A stretch of 20,241 bases of DNA from a virus. The stretch is from positions 1-20,241 of IMG/VR virus record IMGVR_UViG_3300044678_000042; one strand, given 5' to 3'. The position numbers were made by a program, and so were the translations under genes. The notes below the pieces were generated by a model. That model searched no databases. It was not told where the DNA came from and was given only the letters and a program-made list of their open reading frames with translations. Positions 4,482-20,241 of this stretch are shown in pieces (position 1 is the stretch's first letter; the number at the start of each line of letters is the position of its first letter).

Positions 4482-5660
4482 TTATCCGTTTGTTGCTGCA
4501 GACTCAATGCGATAGAGCGCTGCTTCACGAAGGCGTGCAAAGCCTCCGAAGTAGTACCAACCGATTGTGCGGAAACGACGTAGTGCGTCAATCTCTGGAC
4601 CGATAACGGTTGAGATGTCTGCAGCCTGTGCTTCAGCCAATGCTTCACGACCAGCGACGATTGCGCGGTAGTTGTTGGTAAATGTAACAGTACCTGTGTC
4701 AGCAACTGATGTAATGTTAGATGCTGTAAGTGCATAGGTAAATGTTGTTGATGTTGTACCTGTGATGGTATATGTGCCGTTAACACCTGTGTTAGTTGTA
4801 GCAGCAACTGTTACAACCTGACCTGTTCCGAGGCCGTGAGCAACTGCTGTAGTAATTGTTACTACGTTAGATGTCAAAGCAACGTTGGTGATAGCAACTG
4901 TAGGTGTGATACCTGTAGACAACTTTAGACCGTTAAGAACGCGAGGTGTCTCAACGATGAAAGCGCCTTCGATAACGCCTACTGCACCAGCAACGAACGG
5001 TGTACGCTCAACGTACTTTGTTAGTTCCTGGAAGCCACCTGTACCAGTTTCAGCGCGAAGATCGGCTGACTGACGTGGGTGTAGGTATGCAGCATATAGT
5101 TCACCCATACGAGGCAATGCCTTGTTTGTGCGTAGTGATACAACAGCGTTACGGATGTCCGCAACTGTCATTGTGTCTACTGGGAGAATTCCTGATGATG
5201 CAGTTGGAACAGTTCCTGATGGACCGTTTGAGTAGATCACGTTAGTTCCTGCTGAGAGGACCTGACCTACAACGTTGTCAATAGAATCTGCTGCGTTGTA
5301 CGCGATGATGTCAGCAAGTGCTGAATCAACATCGTTGAAAGAAGTTAGGTTTAACTTCTTTGTTGTTGTAACTGCTGAACCGTATTCGTTCAGTGTTACT
5401 GTAACCTGTGATGGGTTACCTAGTGCAATGCTTGATACATCTGATGTTTCTGTCAATGTAGAAGTAGCCTGAGCCAAATCTGAGTAGATTGAGAAAACAA
5501 CTGATGATCCTGGCATTGCCTGTTGCACTGGCTTAACATCTGCAAGTGAACGCATAACAGGAATGGAACGTAGTGCCATTCTTACATACTGATCGTATGC
5601 TGCTTGTACGAGGTTGCTGATGCTAGACGTGGTGGTAGGGGTACCTGTTGGGATAGCCAT
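4482..5660 (-). CDS. Major capsid protein, N4-gp56-like, with inserted beta domain
   Basis: A 392-residue protein placed directly after the scaffold gene. The N-terminal region (YDQYVRMALRSIPVMRSLAD near 23-41), the GSSVVFSIYSDLAQATSTLTE segment near 51-71, and SQVTVTLNEYGSAVTTTKKL near 84-102 fit my memory of N4-gp56-family capsid proteins with the HK97 fold. The C-terminal part (AIVAGREALAEAQ, then TIGWYYFGGFARLREAALYRIES) also fits. Between FIVETPRVLNG (about 234-244) and YRAIVAGRE (331 on) lies a Thr/Val-rich stretch, about 252-327, with the pattern HGLGTGQVVTVAATTNTG, then NGTYTITGTTSTTFTY. That pattern is familiar from Ig-like or similar beta domains in other phage proteins, and it probably projects from the shell. 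The gene forms the icosahedral head shell. Confidence 0.88.
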   Translation of the reverse strand: MAIPTGTPTTTSSISNLVQAAYDQYVRMALRSIPVMRSLADVKPVQQAMPGSSVVFSIYSDLAQATSTLTETSDVSSIALGNPSQVTVTLNEYGSAVTTTKKLNLTSFNDVDSALADIIAYNAADSIDNVVGQVLSAGTNVIYSNGPSGTVPTASSGILPVDTMTVADIRNAVVSLRTNKALPRMGELYAAYLHPRQSADLRAETGTGGFQELTKYVERTPFVAGAVGVIEGAFIVETPRVLNGLKLSTGITPTVAITNVALTSNVVTITTAVAHGLGTGQVVTVAATTNTGVNGTYTITGTTSTTFTYALTASNITSVADTGTVTFTNNYRAIVAGREALAEAQAADISTVIGPEIDALRRFRTIGWYYFGGFARLREAALYRIESAATNG

Positions 5661-9389: not shown

Positions 9390-10144
9390 TAGCCCCTCCC
9401 AATAAACTTGTTGAATGCTTCATAGAATCCCATTACGCTGCTTGCCTTAGCAGGATCACCCTTAGATACTTCTTCGATAAGGTATGCCTCTGGATTAAAC
9501 GCAGCCTCAGTTACAATCTGGCGCTGTACTCCACCGCCCATATCCTTGTACTCTGTTTGTCCAAGGTTCTTTGGGTTGGCTAATTGCTTCTCAATGTTCT
9601 TTGTATACTTAGCAATCTGCGCTTGAGACGCACCGCTTCCTGTTAGATCACGGAACACCTTGTCAATAGTTGCTTCGATAGTGTCAGGGCTGAACTTGCG
9701 CTGTTGCTGGATTACATTGAATCCACCATCGCCACCGCCACCATCACCTGTTGTTTGATTAGAAAGAAATGTTTCAAGGTTATCCACAGGTGTAGTCTGC
9801 TGTGCTGCACCAGGAAGACGTGTGAACTTGTCGCGTGTGTAAGCATTAAGATCTTCATAAGCATTGAAGTATGCTTCTTGCAGTTTAAGAGTTGGCTTGC
9901 CAGTAACATCACCACGGTAATATCCAGCAGCCTTTAATTTCTGTGCCAAAGACTTGCGGTAGTCAGGAGTAAATCCTTCAAAATCTGCAAGCAATTGATT
10001 TGGATTTGCAAATGTTGGCTCAGATACAACGACATCTACAAGGGTAGAACCTTGGTATTGCTTAGTCTTTGTTGTTGTGCCACCTGTGATAATGGATGTT
10101 GCTGGTACCTTCTTTGGGTCAAAAGGTATAAACGTCTCTGCCAT
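9389..10144 (-). CDS. Virion-associated protein (251 aa) with a possible peptidoglycan-binding-like segment
   Basis: Both ends share one base with the neighbours (TAATG). Residues about 51-100 contain YRKSLAQKLKAAGYYRGDV, then TGKPTLKLQEAYFNAYEDLN, loosely like the AGYY.G.vdG..t..A...f pattern of PG_binding_1 domains. The match is weak and could be coincidental. A Gly-rich linker (GDGGGGDGGF) at about 133-142 leads to a second helical unit, DTIEATIDKVFRDLTGSGAS then QAQIAKYTKNIEKQLA, which I recall from small proteins beside large actinophage virion genes. It belongs to the coupled block between portal and scaffold. Binding of cell wall during ejection would fit but is speculative. Coding call firm, function open. 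Confidence 0.7.
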   Translation of the reverse strand: MAETFIPFDPKKVPATSIITGGTTTKTKQYQGSTLVDVVVSEPTFANPNQLLADFEGFTPDYRKSLAQKLKAAGYYRGDVTGKPTLKLQEAYFNAYEDLNAYTRDKFTRLPGAAQQTTPVDNLETFLSNQTTGDGGGGDGGFNVIQQQRKFSPDTIEATIDKVFRDLTGSGASQAQIAKYTKNIEKQLANPKNLGQTEYKDMGGGVQRQIVTEAAFNPEAYLIEEVSKGDPAKASSVMGFYEAFNKFIGRG

Positions 10145-13100
10145 TATTCACCAATCAATCTGCTAAATAGAACGCTGTATGTGGATACTGCACTAGGATC
10201 TCCTGCTGCAATCTCCTGCAAACGTAGTCTTAATGATTCTTTGTAGGACTTGCGGATTCTAATATCGCGGTCTGAACTTGAGTTGTACTGAGTAGTAGTA
10301 AGTATCTCGTACTCATCGTACTCACGTACCATCTCACGCAAACGGCTGATAGTAGGACCTGTAAGGTTTGGTTCTTTAATCATCTCACGTAAATCAGAAA
10401 ATGCTGCGTCACGCTTGATGGTGTTTTCTGCTGCACTAGCAAACTCCATACGAAGTAATGGACGTGCTGCTAGAAATTCCTTTGACCACATCTGCCAGTT
10501 GTCATTGATAATGGTACGTTCACGATCTGTAAAGGCACCAGTTAATGCCTCATCGCGTGTAGCCTTTTGTGAGTAATAGAGTTGCTCATCCTTGGCTACT
10601 GATACTTCCTTGAGGTAATCACCGATCAACTTCTTCTGGCGATAGCCTTCATTCATCAATGTCTGGTAGGCATCGTAGGTAAACTCACCAGTATTTGGAA
10701 TCAAGAATGCTGAACCCTGTGGATATCTTTTAACCAAAGCACGGTTATCTTCTACCCACTTTGATGCTGAGTTGCTGGACTGGAAGTATGGTAATACCTG
10801 TGGATCTGACTCATTAACAGTAAATGGAATCTGATTAGGGAAGTACTTCACCCAATCTGCCATAGCCTCACCATATGGATCCTCAGATCCCTGCTCAGCG
10901 TACTTGTTAATTAACTTGTTCCAGGTCTGCTTGAAGTTAACACTTCCATTATCCCGTGCCCACTCAGCCATATCTGACTTTAAGGTTACAGATGGGCTTG
11001 CTGGAGCAAAGAATCCTGCAACGAAACGAATACCAAGAATACTTTGGACTGTTGCTTCTAGTGCTTCTTGATATGTCTTCATCTCACCTGGAGATGCGTC
11101 AGCACCTGGTGTCTTACCTGCTGCTTCTAGGTATGTAACAGCCTTACGGAATGCTGATGCATACTGAGACTCACGTTCATCCTTGTTCATAGCAGCAAGT
11201 AATCTATTAACGTGTGCTGGTAGCAATGCGTTAATAAACGGCTGATCTTGTCCAATAGGACCTAGAGTTGCACGTTCTGCTGTACCTAGTTCCTTGCCAA
11301 TACGAGCAACGATTGCGTTCTCTGACTTGGCAAGGCTTGGTACTAGAGAATAGATAGTGTTTAGCGGTAATGCTGCTAACGGACCAGAGAATGTTGGCAT
11401 CCAAGACTCAGGATCAAAGGATGGTGTAAGCATCTTTAACTTTGCACTGAACTCTAGTGGTAGTGGTGCTACGAACTTGTCTCCAAGACCGAATACATCT
11501 AGTGCTTTCTTCATTGCGCCGTACACTGGAGCCAATCCAGGGTAAACAAAGTACGCTTCTCCCTGGTCATCCTTCTGTACAAACCCAGAATGGCTTACGC
11601 CTTCATAAGTTAGTGCTGCTTTCTGTATAGCCTCTGGGTTATACTTAGCAGTGCGGTACAAACGACGATAGAAGTCCTCAGTTGCACGGTAGAAACGAGC
11701 AAAGTTACGTGCAGACCACGCTAATTGTGTGCGAAGTGCAGGGTTATCCACAAATGCAAGCGTAGATTCCAGTGCAAGTTCCTCAGATATGCGTACAACC
11801 TGTGATTTTGCTGCATCTGTTGCAGCCTCACGTGCTACTGGGTCTGTAATTCCCTTGGTGTACTGCTTAATCAAGTCTTCTGCGTAGCCACCAGGTGCAT
11901 TAAGGTCATCGTAGTAGCGAACTGCTGCGTTAATTACCAATGGTTCACGTGAGAAACGTGCGTTTGACTCACCTAACCAGGTCCATCCACGCTTAGATAG
12001 GTCAGTAAGGATGTTCTTGCTTTCCATTACTGGCATAAATGCAGGTCCTGCTACAGATGCTGGAAAATCTTCAATGTTTGTTGGTAGGTCTTCTAGGTTA
12101 AAATCCTCTAAATCAATGAATGCTTTACCATCTGCATCTACTTTACGGATCTTACCTAGTAATTCCATATTGATAGACTTGCCATCTTGACGACTAAAGA
12201 GATTTCTTAGGTCATCATAGATTGCTGCAGCGTGTTGCTGTGGTGTGTAGCCTTCTTTTGTATATCGCATAAAGGTTGTCAGTTGATCGCCAAATGACCC
12301 GATATATGGTGCTAGTTCGTTAACAAAATCTTCTTGTGTAATCTTATCGTCAAACAGTTGGATAGCACGCTCACCGAGATCATCAGTTCCGCGAATAATA
12401 ATGTTCCAACCCCAGGCAAGTTTACCCTGGTCATCAATAAGAGACTTCTGTGTAAAGCCACTGCCACCGATTGGACGCATTGCCTTGTCATTAAATGTAA
12501 GTGCAACAGTCTTTCCATTACGATCTGCAGTTGCTATCGCACGTGATGATGCGTTAAGCCCACTGATTGCGTTAGATGCGCCTTCGCCTGCTCCACGTAG
12601 TAGAGCATCTAGGTTGCCGTACTTAACAAAGTCTTTGATATGGCTTGGTAGTTTTTCCAAGATATCTACGTTAGCAGCGTCATTGATTTTAGAACTTAGC
12701 AAAGCCTCTGCCATAATAATACGGCGCTGTTGCAATCTTTGCTGTGAAGTTAAACCACGATATGAAGCAACATCTTCGTTCTTGAGGATTCCTTGCTTAA
12801 TCAATTGCTTGATTGCTTCGACTTCACCATCAACTGCAGCAAGGCGAGTCTTGAAGTACTCTTGATCCTTGCGCTTAACAACACGGTTAATCATACCTAG
12901 GTCTTGTCCAGAACCTAAGCGAATCTTAGTTGCTGTACGACGTGAACGAGCAGTCTTGAGAATTGATTGACCATTGAGAATACCCATTGTGTAATCTTCA
13001 ATAGCATTACGTACTGGGAAACGTGGACCTGCGATAGTTCCAAATGTCCAAGCATCTACTATACGTTCAGCACCTTCTTTGTATTGCATACCTAATACAC

Positions 13101-15779: not shown

Positions 15780-17534
15780 TTATGCTGCCCCGCCAATGGC
15801 GGCTAGTAGTTGGCCTATATCTGGACGTTGAGCAGCAGCGGGTGCGCCTCCTGGTTGTTCTGGAGTTGGCTGCGAGGCAGGGGCAGGGAGTGCTCCCGCT
15901 GCTGGAACTTGAGGTGCACCTGGCATTAGTTCTGGTGCTACTGGCATCTCTGGCGCAGGTTCTGGCGCAAATGCCTTACCAATAATAGTTTCTAGTTGAA
16001 GTCCCTTTTGGCGACCTTGGATAACTTCTGCGATACGCGTAATGATTTGCGAAGGATCCTGACCTTGCGCTGCAAGGGCTGGAATGGCTTGAGCATACTG
16101 AGCAACAGCCACCCGCAAAGAATCGCGCATTTCTTCGATATCAACACGTTGTTCCTCCTGCGTTACGTTTAACTCCATTGGAATCTCACGACGTACATAG
16201 TCACGAGATACGAGTTTATCTGAACGCATTTGTAGTAAAGCAATGATGGCACGGTTAGGATCCATACCAGACATAATGCCGTAGCGAACATCTACACCGT
16301 AATTGCCATCAATCTGCTTTGATGGAATGTACTTCATATTAAACGGAGTACCATCATCTACGCCCTTGATTTCCTTTTGCATAGAACCAAAGATCTTCTC
16401 ATCTACTTCAAAGCAAAGAGAAGCAAGGTCTGTAAACATACGAGCAAACTGTGCTTGTGCTGACTTAATCTGTGTATCAAAGCCTGCTTGTAGTGCTTGT
16501 ACACCGCGACCTGTAACGATAGATGCATCAATGTTACCTGAGCGAACCTCTGGGTAACGAGAACCTAAACGCAATTCACGCTCTAGTACACCTGACTCTG
16601 TAAAGACTCCAGGTGGTAGTTCCAAAGGAACACGGCGGATACCTTGTGGATTAGCAGAACGCATAATTGCATCTGGACCAAGTGCCAACTCTTGCACATC
16701 CTGTGGGATAGCAATAGGTGCTTGGATAGACTTTTCTGCTGCTTGAATCTGCAATACTGCAAAGCGAGCACGAGCAAGTTGAACTGATAACACATCATCA
16801 AACTGTCCACGTGCTTCACCATCAATAGATGAGCGCATAGCAACGTATGCCATACACTTACCAATAGGGTTTGGAATGTTTGAGAGTACTAGGTTCTTAC
16901 GCTCTGGAATAAAGATTAGATCCTGGTCTTTGTCGTGGTAGCGAACTAGTGACACATAAGGTGAGCCAGGAGAATAGACATTCTTTGGCATAATCTGGTC
17001 ATAGAACTCTGGGTACTGCATTGCAAGTGTCTCAGCATCAGATGCCATTACCTGCGTGAGCGAGACGGTACGACCAAATCTATCAATCTCAGGATAAGTA
17101 CCAAAAGGATTAAGCAAACGTATTCTCGGATTATTGGTTTCATAGTCCATCTCCACCATACCTGGCAACATACCGTAGGTGTTAAACCAATCAGCACCAG
17201 TATACATTTGAATTTGTAGTTCAGATGCGCTGATGTAATGGTTAACAATACGAGTACGTGTGTCTGCTGCTTTACGTGCTGAGTCTGAAACCATATTGGT
17301 TGCAGCGCAGTTAAATGATGGTAGCGGTGCCATTGCTTCTGCAAGGTCACGTGCTGCTACGTCAATAAAGTTAGCAACTAGAGGCTTTGGGTATTCCTCT
17401 GAAAACATTGCAGGGTAAACCTTGCTAATGTCTCCCTGACGTACAGAGAGCACATCACGCATTCTCTGGTCACGTGCGGAGTAGCGCGTCTGTAGGCGAT
17501 TAACCTTGGCTACTACCTCTTTAGTTGATAACAA
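15780..17534 (-). CDS. Portal protein
   Basis: A 584-residue protein following the terminase genes. The start is TTG at 17534, seven bases after AAGGAC; no nearer ATG preserves the N-terminus. The N-terminal half has RMRDVLSVRQGDISKVYPAM and FIDVAARDLAEAMAPLPSF, the pattern I recall from portals of actinobacterial phages. It continues with YFNTYG-like WFNTYGMLPGMVEMDY and the ARARFAVLQIQAAEKSIQAP helix. Around 325-370, SGNIDASIVTGRGVQALQAG then FDTQIKSAQAQFARMF fits the portal wing/stem region. Residues about 520-584 are a Pro/Ala/Gln-rich, probably disordered tail. The dodecamer would sit at one capsid vertex, be the docking site for terminase and form the DNA channel. Confidence 0.85.
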   Translation of the reverse strand: MLSTKEVVAKVNRLQTRYSARDQRMRDVLSVRQGDISKVYPAMFSEEYPKPLVANFIDVAARDLAEAMAPLPSFNCAATNMVSDSARKAADTRTRIVNHYISASELQIQMYTGADWFNTYGMLPGMVEMDYETNNPRIRLLNPFGTYPEIDRFGRTVSLTQVMASDAETLAMQYPEFYDQIMPKNVYSPGSPYVSLVRYHDKDQDLIFIPERKNLVLSNIPNPIGKCMAYVAMRSSIDGEARGQFDDVLSVQLARARFAVLQIQAAEKSIQAPIAIPQDVQELALGPDAIMRSANPQGIRRVPLELPPGVFTESGVLERELRLGSRYPEVRSGNIDASIVTGRGVQALQAGFDTQIKSAQAQFARMFTDLASLCFEVDEKIFGSMQKEIKGVDDGTPFNMKYIPSKQIDGNYGVDVRYGIMSGMDPNRAIIALLQMRSDKLVSRDYVRREIPMELNVTQEEQRVDIEEMRDSLRVAVAQYAQAIPALAAQGQDPSQIITRIAEVIQGRQKGLQLETIIGKAFAPEPAPEMPVAPELMPGAPQVPAAGALPAPASQPTPEQPGGAPAAAQRPDIGQLLAAIGGAA

Positions 17535-17859: not shown

Positions 17860-19719
17860 TTAGATGAACGTACGATCTTTTTCTGCGAGCAGTTCATCTA
17901 TGTTGATAACTGTTCGTTTGCCTATCTCACTACGAGACAGGAATGGATTCTTCATATGGTGTGTCTTGTGCATACCTTGGTTGAGCATTTCACGGGCGCG
18001 GATCTCACAGAACCATAACGCCATCACCATATCGGTCTTACCCTTAGTAGTAGGCGACCAGGTAATTAGTTGCTCGATGAGCGCCTTAATGTTTTCAGTT
18101 TGGTCAGAAGGTAAATGAATAAGGTTGTCTCTGTGGTGTTTACCGTCGTGCTGCTTGGTGCCGAACAAAGTTGACATTGATGCAACACCGAAGCCTGAGT
18201 CCCACTTGTTGGATCCAGTATGGTGTTCCCGCAGTAGCACTCCTCTGGAGGCCAGGTTCTGACGGATTCCCTCATCTTGCGTAAGGAATGATTGGAATGC
18301 ATTCTTTTCTACAATCCACTCGGTGGGCTGGTATAGCGCAGTCCAGTCAAAGATTATCTGACGGATTGCAGCAGGCGTAGGACGAGTAATCTTAATAGCA
18401 TCAACGATATAGCGTTTATGACTAACCCGATCAATAGCGTAACAAACGACGGCTGTATCACCAACCATAGCGGGATCAAGACCACAAATAATTGAAAAGC
18501 CGCTAAGGTCACGCGGATGGCCTGGGTTACCAGGAACCAAGCGACCTGCTTTACGCATACCATCTATAGAACCTCGCACACATACTGGGTCAAAGATTGC
18601 ATCATCTGATATATCCTGCTGCTGGTAAACCAGCGCCCAGGTAGAAGCATCCATTGCTTGTCGTTCGTTGTAAAGGTTACGACCATTCCAGCGTGGGTAT
18701 AGTCCATCCTCATTCAAATCTGATTCCATCTGCCCATCAAAGGGAGCATCGGATGCTGGCCACAGGGTAACCCACTTGTCGGGGTCTTCGTGTGTCTCCA
18801 GTAATGCTGGCATTGCCAAGTACTTCCACGGTACTAGACCTCCAGGGTAGCGGTCCTCGGAGCGTAGTTCTTTGTAGAGATCAATTGCTGTAACGCGGGT
18901 ACCGATAATGATTAACTTACCAGTAGGGTTAAGACGAGAACGCACATCCTGGGTTAACCAGCGGATTTGCTTCTCAAACTCGTTGGCGTTCTTTAATGTC
19001 ACCGCATCGTCTACGATAATCATATCTGCACGCTTACCGTAGATCTGACCACCGATACCGACGGCTTCGATGTTTGGATCCTTTTCTGAGGATTCTCTCA
19101 GTTCATCACCAAAGGTCACACGGGTTGCTTGCCAAGAAGCGGTCTTAGAGTTAAACCCTACGCCAGCAGCGTAAGCCTGTTGCAGTGCTTCATAGTTAGG
19201 ATGAGTCAGGCGTTGCTTGATGGCGTAGAGAAAGTCTGCTGCTAGTTGCTGAGTCTGAGAGACAATCAGCACACGAAAGTTAGGGTTCTGACATACCTGC
19301 CAGGTAACGTAGTCAATAGTTACCGTCATTGACTTGGCGTGGTTGGGCGGGATATTGATAAGAATACGGTTACTAGCCAGCCCAGGTTCGTACTTCATAC
19401 TGGGATGTAGCCAACCAGGTTCTCTGCCTTCGATTACATCGATGAGGTTCTGCTGGTGTGGAAAAGTCTTGGAGTGTAGGTAGCGTTCACGGAACTCTGC
19501 AAAGGTCAAATCGTGGACATCGGATGAGGCAAAGTTCTTGTCCTTGAGTCCTAGGCGTGTTCGGTCCATCTTGTCTGCAAAGACCTTATCGGTCCTGCGG
19601 TAGTACTCGTAGGTCTTGTAGGATTTACCAGCAGCAGCCGTGGCTGCTTCGATGGTTAGGCCTTCTGCTACACCTGAAAGGATCAGACGCTTGGCGATGT
19701 CACTGGACTTCTCGGACAT
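17860..19719 (-). CDS. terL: Terminase large subunit with N-terminal helix-turn-helix-like segment
   Basis: A 619-residue packaging motor. ATG 19719 follows AGAGGAGACCAG. The ATPase domain has a Walker A-like PPNHAKSM at 124-131, Walker B MIIVDD at 233-238, and a coupling-type GTR at 273-275. The RNase-H-like nuclease shows Asp415 in GLDPA, Glu471 in VEKNAFQ and Asp563 in KTDMVMALW, the expected acidic triad. Residues about 1-58 (LILSGVAEGLTIEAATAAAG then KSYKTYEYYRRTDKVFADKM) look like a helix-turn-helix of the small-subunit kind, which most large subunits lack. It uses ATP to pump DNA through the portal and cuts concatemers. It is the first gene of the leftward operon, and no separate small subunit is visible in the window. 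Confidence 0.95.
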   Translation of the reverse strand: MSEKSSDIAKRLILSGVAEGLTIEAATAAAGKSYKTYEYYRRTDKVFADKMDRTRLGLKDKNFASSDVHDLTFAEFRERYLHSKTFPHQQNLIDVIEGREPGWLHPSMKYEPGLASNRILINIPPNHAKSMTVTIDYVTWQVCQNPNFRVLIVSQTQQLAADFLYAIKQRLTHPNYEALQQAYAAGVGFNSKTASWQATRVTFGDELRESSEKDPNIEAVGIGGQIYGKRADMIIVDDAVTLKNANEFEKQIRWLTQDVRSRLNPTGKLIIIGTRVTAIDLYKELRSEDRYPGGLVPWKYLAMPALLETHEDPDKWVTLWPASDAPFDGQMESDLNEDGLYPRWNGRNLYNERQAMDASTWALVYQQQDISDDAIFDPVCVRGSIDGMRKAGRLVPGNPGHPRDLSGFSIICGLDPAMVGDTAVVCYAIDRVSHKRYIVDAIKITRPTPAAIRQIIFDWTALYQPTEWIVEKNAFQSFLTQDEGIRQNLASRGVLLREHHTGSNKWDSGFGVASMSTLFGTKQHDGKHHRDNLIHLPSDQTENIKALIEQLITWSPTTKGKTDMVMALWFCEIRAREMLNQGMHKTHHMKNPFLSRSEIGKRTVINIDELLAEKDRTFI

Positions 19720-19737
19720 CTGGTCTCCTCTAATAGA

Positions 19738-19750
19738 GCGCCGAAGGCGC
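19738..19750 (-). other. Leader hairpin ahead of terL
   Basis: GCGCC and GGCGC form a perfect 5-bp stem with a 3-base loop, ending about 8 bases before the ribosome site of terL. A second inverted repeat (GTAAAA/TTTTAC, 19751-19765) abuts it. It could affect ribosome access or mRNA stability. Confidence 0.45.
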
Positions 19751-19807
19751 GTAAAAAAATTTTACTGGGGAAGAGATCTCTATACTGGAGATAGAACTAT
19801 CCCCACT

Positions 19808-19828
19808 AAAAGCGGTGCCGTGCACCGC
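19808..19828 (-). terminator. Possible intrinsic terminator in the terL leader
   Basis: On the minus strand, GCGGTGC and GCACCGC make a perfect 7-bp GC-rich stem with a 3-base loop, followed directly by TTTT. The U-run is short. It points toward terL about 90 bases before its start, so late transcription would have to begin after it or read through it. Confidence 0.4.
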
Positions 19829-19877
19829 ACAGTTCGGGCTTGACGCCCGAGCAAGCCGAGAGCGCAGCGAGGGGTAA

Positions 19878-19924
19878 GTTGGTGCTCGTCCTAGGGGGAC
19901 TCGCGTAGTGCCAACGTAGCGAGT
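19878..19924 (+). other. Interleaved stems, possible pseudoknot or switch
   Basis: GTTGGTGCT (19878-19886) can pair with AGTGCCAAC (19907-19915) through 9 pairs including two G-U, read as plus-strand RNA. ACTCGC (19899-19904) pairs perfectly with GCGAGT (19919-19924). The second stem starts inside the loop of the first and ends outside it. This could be a pseudoknot, two alternative folds, or chance. Confidence 0.3.
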
Positions 19925-20023
19925 ATCGGTCGTAAAACTAGTACTGGTTCGTTTTACTCCCTACTATATATAAGGCAGAAAAAATAACCGATTTCCCGTC
20001 TACGGTAGATTTTATTTACGTTT

Positions 20024-20039
20024 TGTGACCAAGGTCACT
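20024..20039. promoter_or_regulatory. CRP/GlxR-like operator
   Basis: TGTGACCAAGGTCACT matches the CRP-family site TGTGA-N6-TCACA in nine of ten defined positions, and its arms GTGACC/GGTCAC form a perfect 6-2-6 inverted repeat. In Actinobacteria such sites are bound by GlxR/Crp. A phage repressor operator of the same form is an alternative. Confidence 0.45.
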
Positions 20040-20177
20040 AAGAATATGTGTACAAATTAGGACATTACGGGTGGTCTCACTTTAGCGTATATTTTTTGTT
20101 GGGGAGTATGTATGTAGTGGTGTCGGAACTTAACACCTAGGGGAGGGCTTTTGCGACACGCCCGACCGCGTTGCCAA

Positions 20178-20211
20178 CTGTCCACAGCCTGTGGATAACC
20201 CTGTGGATAAC
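20178..20211. promoter_or_regulatory. DnaA-box cluster with a 12-bp tandem repeat
   Basis: Two exact TTATCCACA boxes lie on the minus strand (20190-20198 and 20202-20210), inside a perfect tandem repeat of CCTGTGGATAAC (20188-20199 and 20200-20211). A third, CTGTCCACA (20178-20186) on the plus strand, differs by one base from the TTGTCCACA box of actinobacteria. CCACAG/CTGTGG also forms an inverted repeat between boxes one and two. AT-rich bases follow (TTTATAGAATAAAA). This resembles an origin or a DnaA-regulated site; function is inferred. Confidence 0.65.
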
Positions 20212-20241
20212 TTTATAGAATAAAAGAGGGCGGGCAGTACT

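Follow-up and report, generated by a model that had tools for sequence, protein, structure and literature searches.

Gene-free region upstream of the terminase gene

To begin with, the window, that is, the whole stretch of DNA that was analysed (an IMG/VR viral contig of 20,241 bp), was found to carry the late operon of a tailed phage on the minus strand. The first gene of this operon encodes the terminase large subunit, TerL (17860..19719; PHROG 38, E 1.4e-66), and the genes for the portal (15780-17534) and the major head protein (4482-5660), on the same strand, belong to it as well, together with those for a tail fibre and a glycosyltransferase. Upstream of TerL, positions 19720..20241 form a gene-free region that holds the slot described below, and in the near-identical 39.1 kb contig G001 a total of ~650 bp spanning this region precede the first plausible leftward ORF. 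Among the relatives, the slot region sits between small leftward genes and the rightward late operon. An Rfam search of the window gave no match and a tRNA search found none. Moreover, inverted repeats of ≥10 bp were absent from 19700-20241, and the idea of a hairpin origin was therefore dropped.

Within this region, CCTGTGGATAAC occurs in two identical copies, at 20188-20199 and 20200-20211, which form a perfect 12-bp tandem, and each copy holds one exact DnaA box TTATCCACA on the minus strand (box 1 at 20190..20198 and box 2 at 20202..20210, 12 bp apart), just as the initial annotation had described. The third near-box of opposite orientation that it reported is also present, on the plus strand at 20178..20186 (CTGTCCACA); it differs from TTATCCACA at two positions and from TTGTCCACA at one, and thus ranks as a weak box on sequence grounds. 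Its CCACAG forms the inverted arm of a triad, CCACAGCCTGTGGATAACCCTGTGGATAAC (20182..20211, plus strand), which closely reproduces the element that precedes dnaA in Nanopelagicales, box 1 being homologous to the first TGTGGATAA of that host triad. CCACAG appears at the equivalent place in host genomes and is absent from many box-bearing relatives. The cluster lies ~460-490 bp from TerL, on its upstream side, and no ORF of ≥80 aa covers the stretch, in agreement with the gene-free location upstream of the late operon that had been claimed for it.

The adjacent AT-rich DNA, also part of the earlier description, does exist, but it is short: the stretch by the boxes (CTTTATAGAATAAAA) extends over only ~15 bp, with the flank TTTATAGAATAAAAG (20212..20226) adjoining box 2, while less stable stretches are found farther off, at 19751-19800 and 20009-20058 (~380-440 and ~120-180 bp away, respectively). 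Counterparts of this flank (CTATAAAG, ACATAATAC and GTTAATAAC, among others) occur beside the outermost box in many relatives, and it may serve for unwinding or as a -10 element for the leftward genes. On the TerL side, ~100 bp from the boxes, a conserved anchor element, ACTCCCCAACAAAAAATATACGCTAAAGTGAGACC (20074..20108, minus strand), was found, of which a pattern scan detected 119 stretches in viral contigs; an anchor-like stretch is also present upstream of TerL in Planktophila phage F5.

The window holds four exact boxes over both strands (~0.2 expected), two of them in the cluster, and a same-strand exact pair within 20 bp would be expected ~2e-5 times under a zero-order model. Furthermore, 12 boxes with at most one mismatch were counted (5.2 expected), a number equalled in 0 of 100 shuffles. 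The other two exact TTATCCACA words (9780-9788 and 11744-11752) are located within tail-region genes; pairs of exact boxes at the identical 1,964-bp step were observed in G001, G002, G004 and G016, and such boxes in tail-region genes probably reflect coding conservation. As the record ends 30 bp past the cluster, the rightward extension was taken from relatives: G001/L002 and L003 supply the missing right-hand sequence, their bases being identical to the window across the compared overlap.

Box-bearing and box-less relatives

A search with TerL yielded 80 loci and a search with the anchor element provided more; 138 loci contained the region, and 104 non-redundant regions were kept, the contigs being metagenomic and mostly fragments. 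The ends of one relative, G005, overlap by 127 bp, and this contig is probably complete, with a length of ~39.4 kb. Among the tail-fibre genes of G001, a tyrosine-recombinase gene (PF00589; 9341-10147, oriented) was detected that is 100% identical in G020 and G007, an identity explained by either recent transfer or shared descent. TerL relatives were searched for in bacterial genomes and none were found.

Exact boxes were present in the slot of 56 of the 104 regions, with one to five in each and at least two in 47 of them. The initial annotation had regarded a chance origin of the cluster as unlikely, which is borne out by this retention and by the low expectation of the same-strand pair. TTATCCACA was the commonest 9-mer repeated within a region, and box words were found 110 times in exact form vs. 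17 times with one mismatch. The spacing varies between 11 and 40 bp, mostly between direct repeats with steps of 12, 20, 13 or 18-21 bp, the commonest step between neighbouring boxes being 12 bp (20 out of 54 pairs). Such a combination of exact words and free spacing is the mark of a protein-binding site.

The other 48 regions carry a different sequence in the slot, with conserved flanks on either side, and some of them are 98-99% alike in the TerL protein; the boxes are conserved in about half of the relatives. As boxes were also absent within 3 kb of TerL in the Planktophila isolates E7 and F5, they are not essential to this phage type. In 25 box-less regions the slot contained CTAGACA/TGTCTAAC inverted repeats and in four CTAGACCG repeats, while the remaining ones had TGACTGGTCA/GGTCAGACCAG palindromes, GATGCA repeats or nothing nameable. 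The palindromic motif was also present in nine of the 56 box regions. The slot types were set by simple patterns, which left 16 regions unclassified. In a TerL DNA tree of 108 rows, at least 21 changes between box and no-box states were counted, with slot types still clustered compared to shuffles.

None of the ORF families within -6/+4 kb tracked the presence of boxes (best uncorrected P-value of 0.0016), and a comparison of 142 ORF families with the slot types D and E gave nothing convincing (best uncorrected P-value of 0.0005); for genes beyond -6/+4 kb, the comparison was restricted to ~20 larger contigs. Moreover, the D-type motif had no match within three mismatches in 296 genomes of the host order, so mimicry of a host site in this way does not extend to every slot type. 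As for the GC skew, proposed earlier as a check, a change at the slot was indeed seen in each of five large relatives, but the direction of the genes changes there too, and the skew is therefore uninformative on the origin.

Likeness to the element upstream of host dnaA

The isolated relatives nearest by TerL were OX376640/1 (46%), which are the Planktophila phages LanE43AprE7 and LanE43AprF5, isolates that infect Ca. Planktophila (PMC10202952). Next among the named relatives came the Streptomyces Manuelvirus (Beephvirinae; 43%), whose member WRightOn is annotated with a similar set of nuclease, helicase, resolvase, primase and sigma-like proteins. Unlike the window, E7, F5 and the Manuelvirus members examined (WRightOn and JXY1) have no TTRTCCACA boxes upstream of TerL. 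Judging from these relatives and from the boxes themselves, the host is probably an acI-type actinobacterium. Nanopelagicales genomes were fetched by means of a published acI 16S probe (PMC3699509), including LanE-43, the host of E7 and F5.

In six complete Nanopelagicales genomes, the exact boxes cluster at dnaA, and the number of exact boxes in these streamlined hosts is low (5-14 per genome). Directly before dnaA, P. versatilis carries CCACAGCCTGTGGATAACATTGTGGATAAG, the window counterpart being CCACAGCCTGTGGATAACCCTGTGGATAAC. The identity of the triad was 27/28 to IMCC19121 (the best) and 27/29 to P. versatilis, and the boxes of the host triad are 12 bp apart, as in the window. When up to two mismatches were allowed, CCACAGNCTGTGGATAACNNTGTGGAT was found once per genome in all six complete genomes, always at dnaA, and the 30-mer of the window had 24 matches in 296 genomes of the order, with none for a reversed control. 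Of these matches, 20 were checked, and every one was found in the same orientation at a distance of 44-86 bp upstream of dnaA. A further 18 triad-like sites came from genomes outside the order sample, six of them just upstream of dnaA, two at a record end and 10 without dnaA within ~2 kb, so that the association of the triad with dnaA is not a strict one across the class. Thus, the phage and the dnaA-upstream cluster of Nanopelagicales and other Actinomycetia share the inverted CCACAG arm, two boxes 12 bp apart and their order, whereas dnaA follows in the bacteria and not in the phage, the shared part amounts to only ~30 bp and, unlike in the phage, the second box is the weaker TTGTCCACA in several larger genomes outside Nanopelagicales.

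In an unbiased comparison, all 1.33 Mb of the P. versatilis chromosome were screened for similarity to the 104 phage regions. The strongest hotspot was the dnaA-dnaN interval, hit by 33 phage regions through CTCTGACCTGSGGTTTTA, and the other top hotspot was the triad upstream of dnaA, hit by 15 and 14 regions in two adjoining bins, with an E value of 2e-5 for the window. In a shuffle control run on the dnaA loci of six hosts only, which covers the box match, the best E value of the shuffled regions was 1e-4 and that of the window 1.2e-7. The dnaA-dnaN element alone reached E values of ~7e-5 to 1e-4, hardly better than the best shuffles, and it is its recurrence and its place that suggest a true match. 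This element (CTCTGACCTGSGSTT) was detected in 68 of the 104 phage regions, of several slot types, 128-151 bp past the last box, and at 1748-1765 in P. versatilis. It belongs to the dnaA-dnaN interval in P. versatilis and IMCC25003 and lies elsewhere in LanE-43 and IMCC19121; the window itself is without the CTCTGACCTG element.

With acI oriC, located in the dnaA-dnaN interval, the phage region shares TTATCCACA boxes in gene-free DNA, although fewer than in the host interval, and most phage relatives also contain the element of 15-18 bp that matches this interval of some hosts. The host has a TACTACTACTACC repeat followed by TATATATA, whereas the match in the phage is partial at best (TATATATAGTAGG). 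In the dnaA-dnaN interval of six acI genomes, P. versatilis included, a TACTAC[TG]ACTACC repeat and then TATATA were observed in all, an arrangement resembling a DnaA-trio, as described in PMC10797057, plus an unwinding element.

Candidate replication origin and alternative readings

The sites are exact host-consensus DnaA boxes in the arrangement found upstream of the host dnaA gene, and about half of the relatives retain them, letter for letter, at a single position. The case for host DnaA, which the initial annotation had put forward as a binder, gains much from the match to the element upstream of the host dnaA, and host DnaA would be by far the likeliest protein to bind the boxes. That the region is also an origin of the phage is suggested by its context and is held with less certainty than the binding of DnaA. 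Overall, we consider it moderately probable that the cluster is a predicted host-DnaA binding site inside the probable replication origin of a relative of the Ca. Planktophila phages, modelled on host sites. In the infected cell, host DnaA would assemble on the phage boxes and open nearby AT-rich DNA of the same gene-free region, after which the phage's own DnaB-like helicase and DnaG-type primase would enter, with polymerase III coming from the host; in the box-less relatives, another factor would take the role of DnaA. A point against a DnaA-dependent origin is that the DNA directly beside the boxes contains no strongly AT-rich unwinding region.

The gene content fits the use of host DnaA and polymerase III. 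Genes for a DnaB-like helicase, the CHC2 (Zn-ribbon) and Toprim parts of a primase, a Cas4-like nuclease and a sigma-like protein are present in the relatives, while neither a phage initiator nor a DNA polymerase was recognised among their genes examined, so the phage family needs the host initiator or one that escaped recognition. DnaA was not recognised among the phage proteins examined either, and no dnaA gene follows the phage cluster. Host DnaA boxes in a mobile replicon are also a feature of P1 oriR, where they lie beside iterons, P1 also having its own RepA; a P1-like initiator was not seen here. Little was found in the literature on phage DnaA boxes. For the Pseudomonas phage vB_PseuGesM_254, DnaA boxes plus AT-rich DNA were predicted as the origin, by software and in a single genome, and the available passages contain no comparison with a host dnaA element (PMC11512268).

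Other functions of the same boxes were weighed against initiation. They might be an operator over a leftward early-gene promoter, copying the control that DnaA exerts on the dnaA promoter, a rather unlikely reading that draws on the triad facing the leftward genes, just as it faces dnaA in the host, and on the short AT-rich, -10-like stretches beside the outermost box in many relatives. However, the triad alone is shared and the upstream dnaA promoter sequence is not, and the nearest plausible leftward ORF starts ~190 bp away. Alternatively, the phage copies might be decoys that sequester host DnaA, so that host initiation is delayed or dnaA is released from its control by DnaA, and would not mark a phage origin. 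The copied element is indeed the dnaA-proximal one and not the box array of the dnaA-dnaN interval, the 5-14 exact boxes of a host genome would soon be outnumbered by replicating phage DNA, and their patchy occurrence among close relatives is in keeping with an optional aid; yet two to five boxes per phage genome are modest early in infection, and there is no need for a decoy to occupy one particular position or to trade places there with different repeat arrays. Titration is deemed an unlikely reading.

The possibility, given equal weight in the initial annotation, that the repeats are iterons of a phage-encoded initiator that happen to resemble DnaA boxes was not supported and is now deemed very unlikely. 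The direct repeats do keep to one place, where relatives have TAGACCG or GATGCA units instead, and this recalls replicons differing in their iterons, but the word is identical to the host DnaA box, the entire layout is also the host's, the steps vary from 11 to 40 bp instead of being regular and no initiator family was recognised. Moreover, box and non-box loci were not told apart by any ORF family within -6/+4 kb, and phage-initiator iterons were rejected because nearby ORF families fit neither the box/no-box division nor the D/E types. Finally, exact boxes also occur inside tail genes (9780 and 11744), as a chance resemblance or a functionless relic would allow; conservation of the word over 104 regions, the fixed position and the match to dnaA-upstream elements make this extremely improbable.

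Returning to the reading as a DnaA-dependent origin, it would tie phage replication to the growth control of the host. In the available sources, the start of replication in phages of the most abundant freshwater bacteria appears little studied, and more distant relatives have already been cultured on an acI host. We tentatively propose, as a possibility, that phages of acI-type actinobacteria possess a modular origin slot, in which a mimic of the host dnaA-proximal DnaA cluster alternates over short evolutionary times with unrelated arrays (CTAGAC units, TGACTGGTCA palindromes, GATGCA repeats and mixtures), with no tracked change in phage genes. If so, close relatives would start replication or capture host regulators via different host proteins, and near-identical phages swapping DnaA boxes for other arrays at a fixed slot would amount to a natural experiment on the choice of initiator.

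Several further features were observed around the slot. In L068 and 30 other loci, a leftward ORF of ~200 aa located ~2 kb left of the slot matched PF02767, the central domain of the DNA polymerase III beta-clamp (E 3.7e-8); such a sliding-clamp-like gene is found near the slot in ~1/3 of the relatives, somewhat more commonly in the D/E types, a difference not significant after correction. An extra small gene (MPAPLIGAAALAALRAAAIRQAGKKG...) lies between the slot and TerL, directly upstream of the latter, in L014, L062 and L063. A palindrome, AGTTGAANNTTCAACT, is common to the L025 and L010 regions and to P. versatilis (202926-202944, 285848-285868 and 500722-500742), and is perhaps another host regulator site. 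Furthermore, 12 exact sites of CGAACNNNNGTTCG were found within 450 bp left of the anchor in L013, L067, L134, L138, L146, L202, L223 and L225, that is, in eight of the 104 phage regions vs. ~0.08 expected, and P. versatilis has four sites. This word resembles the actinobacterial LexA (SOS) box, and SOS control of the phages bearing it is possible.
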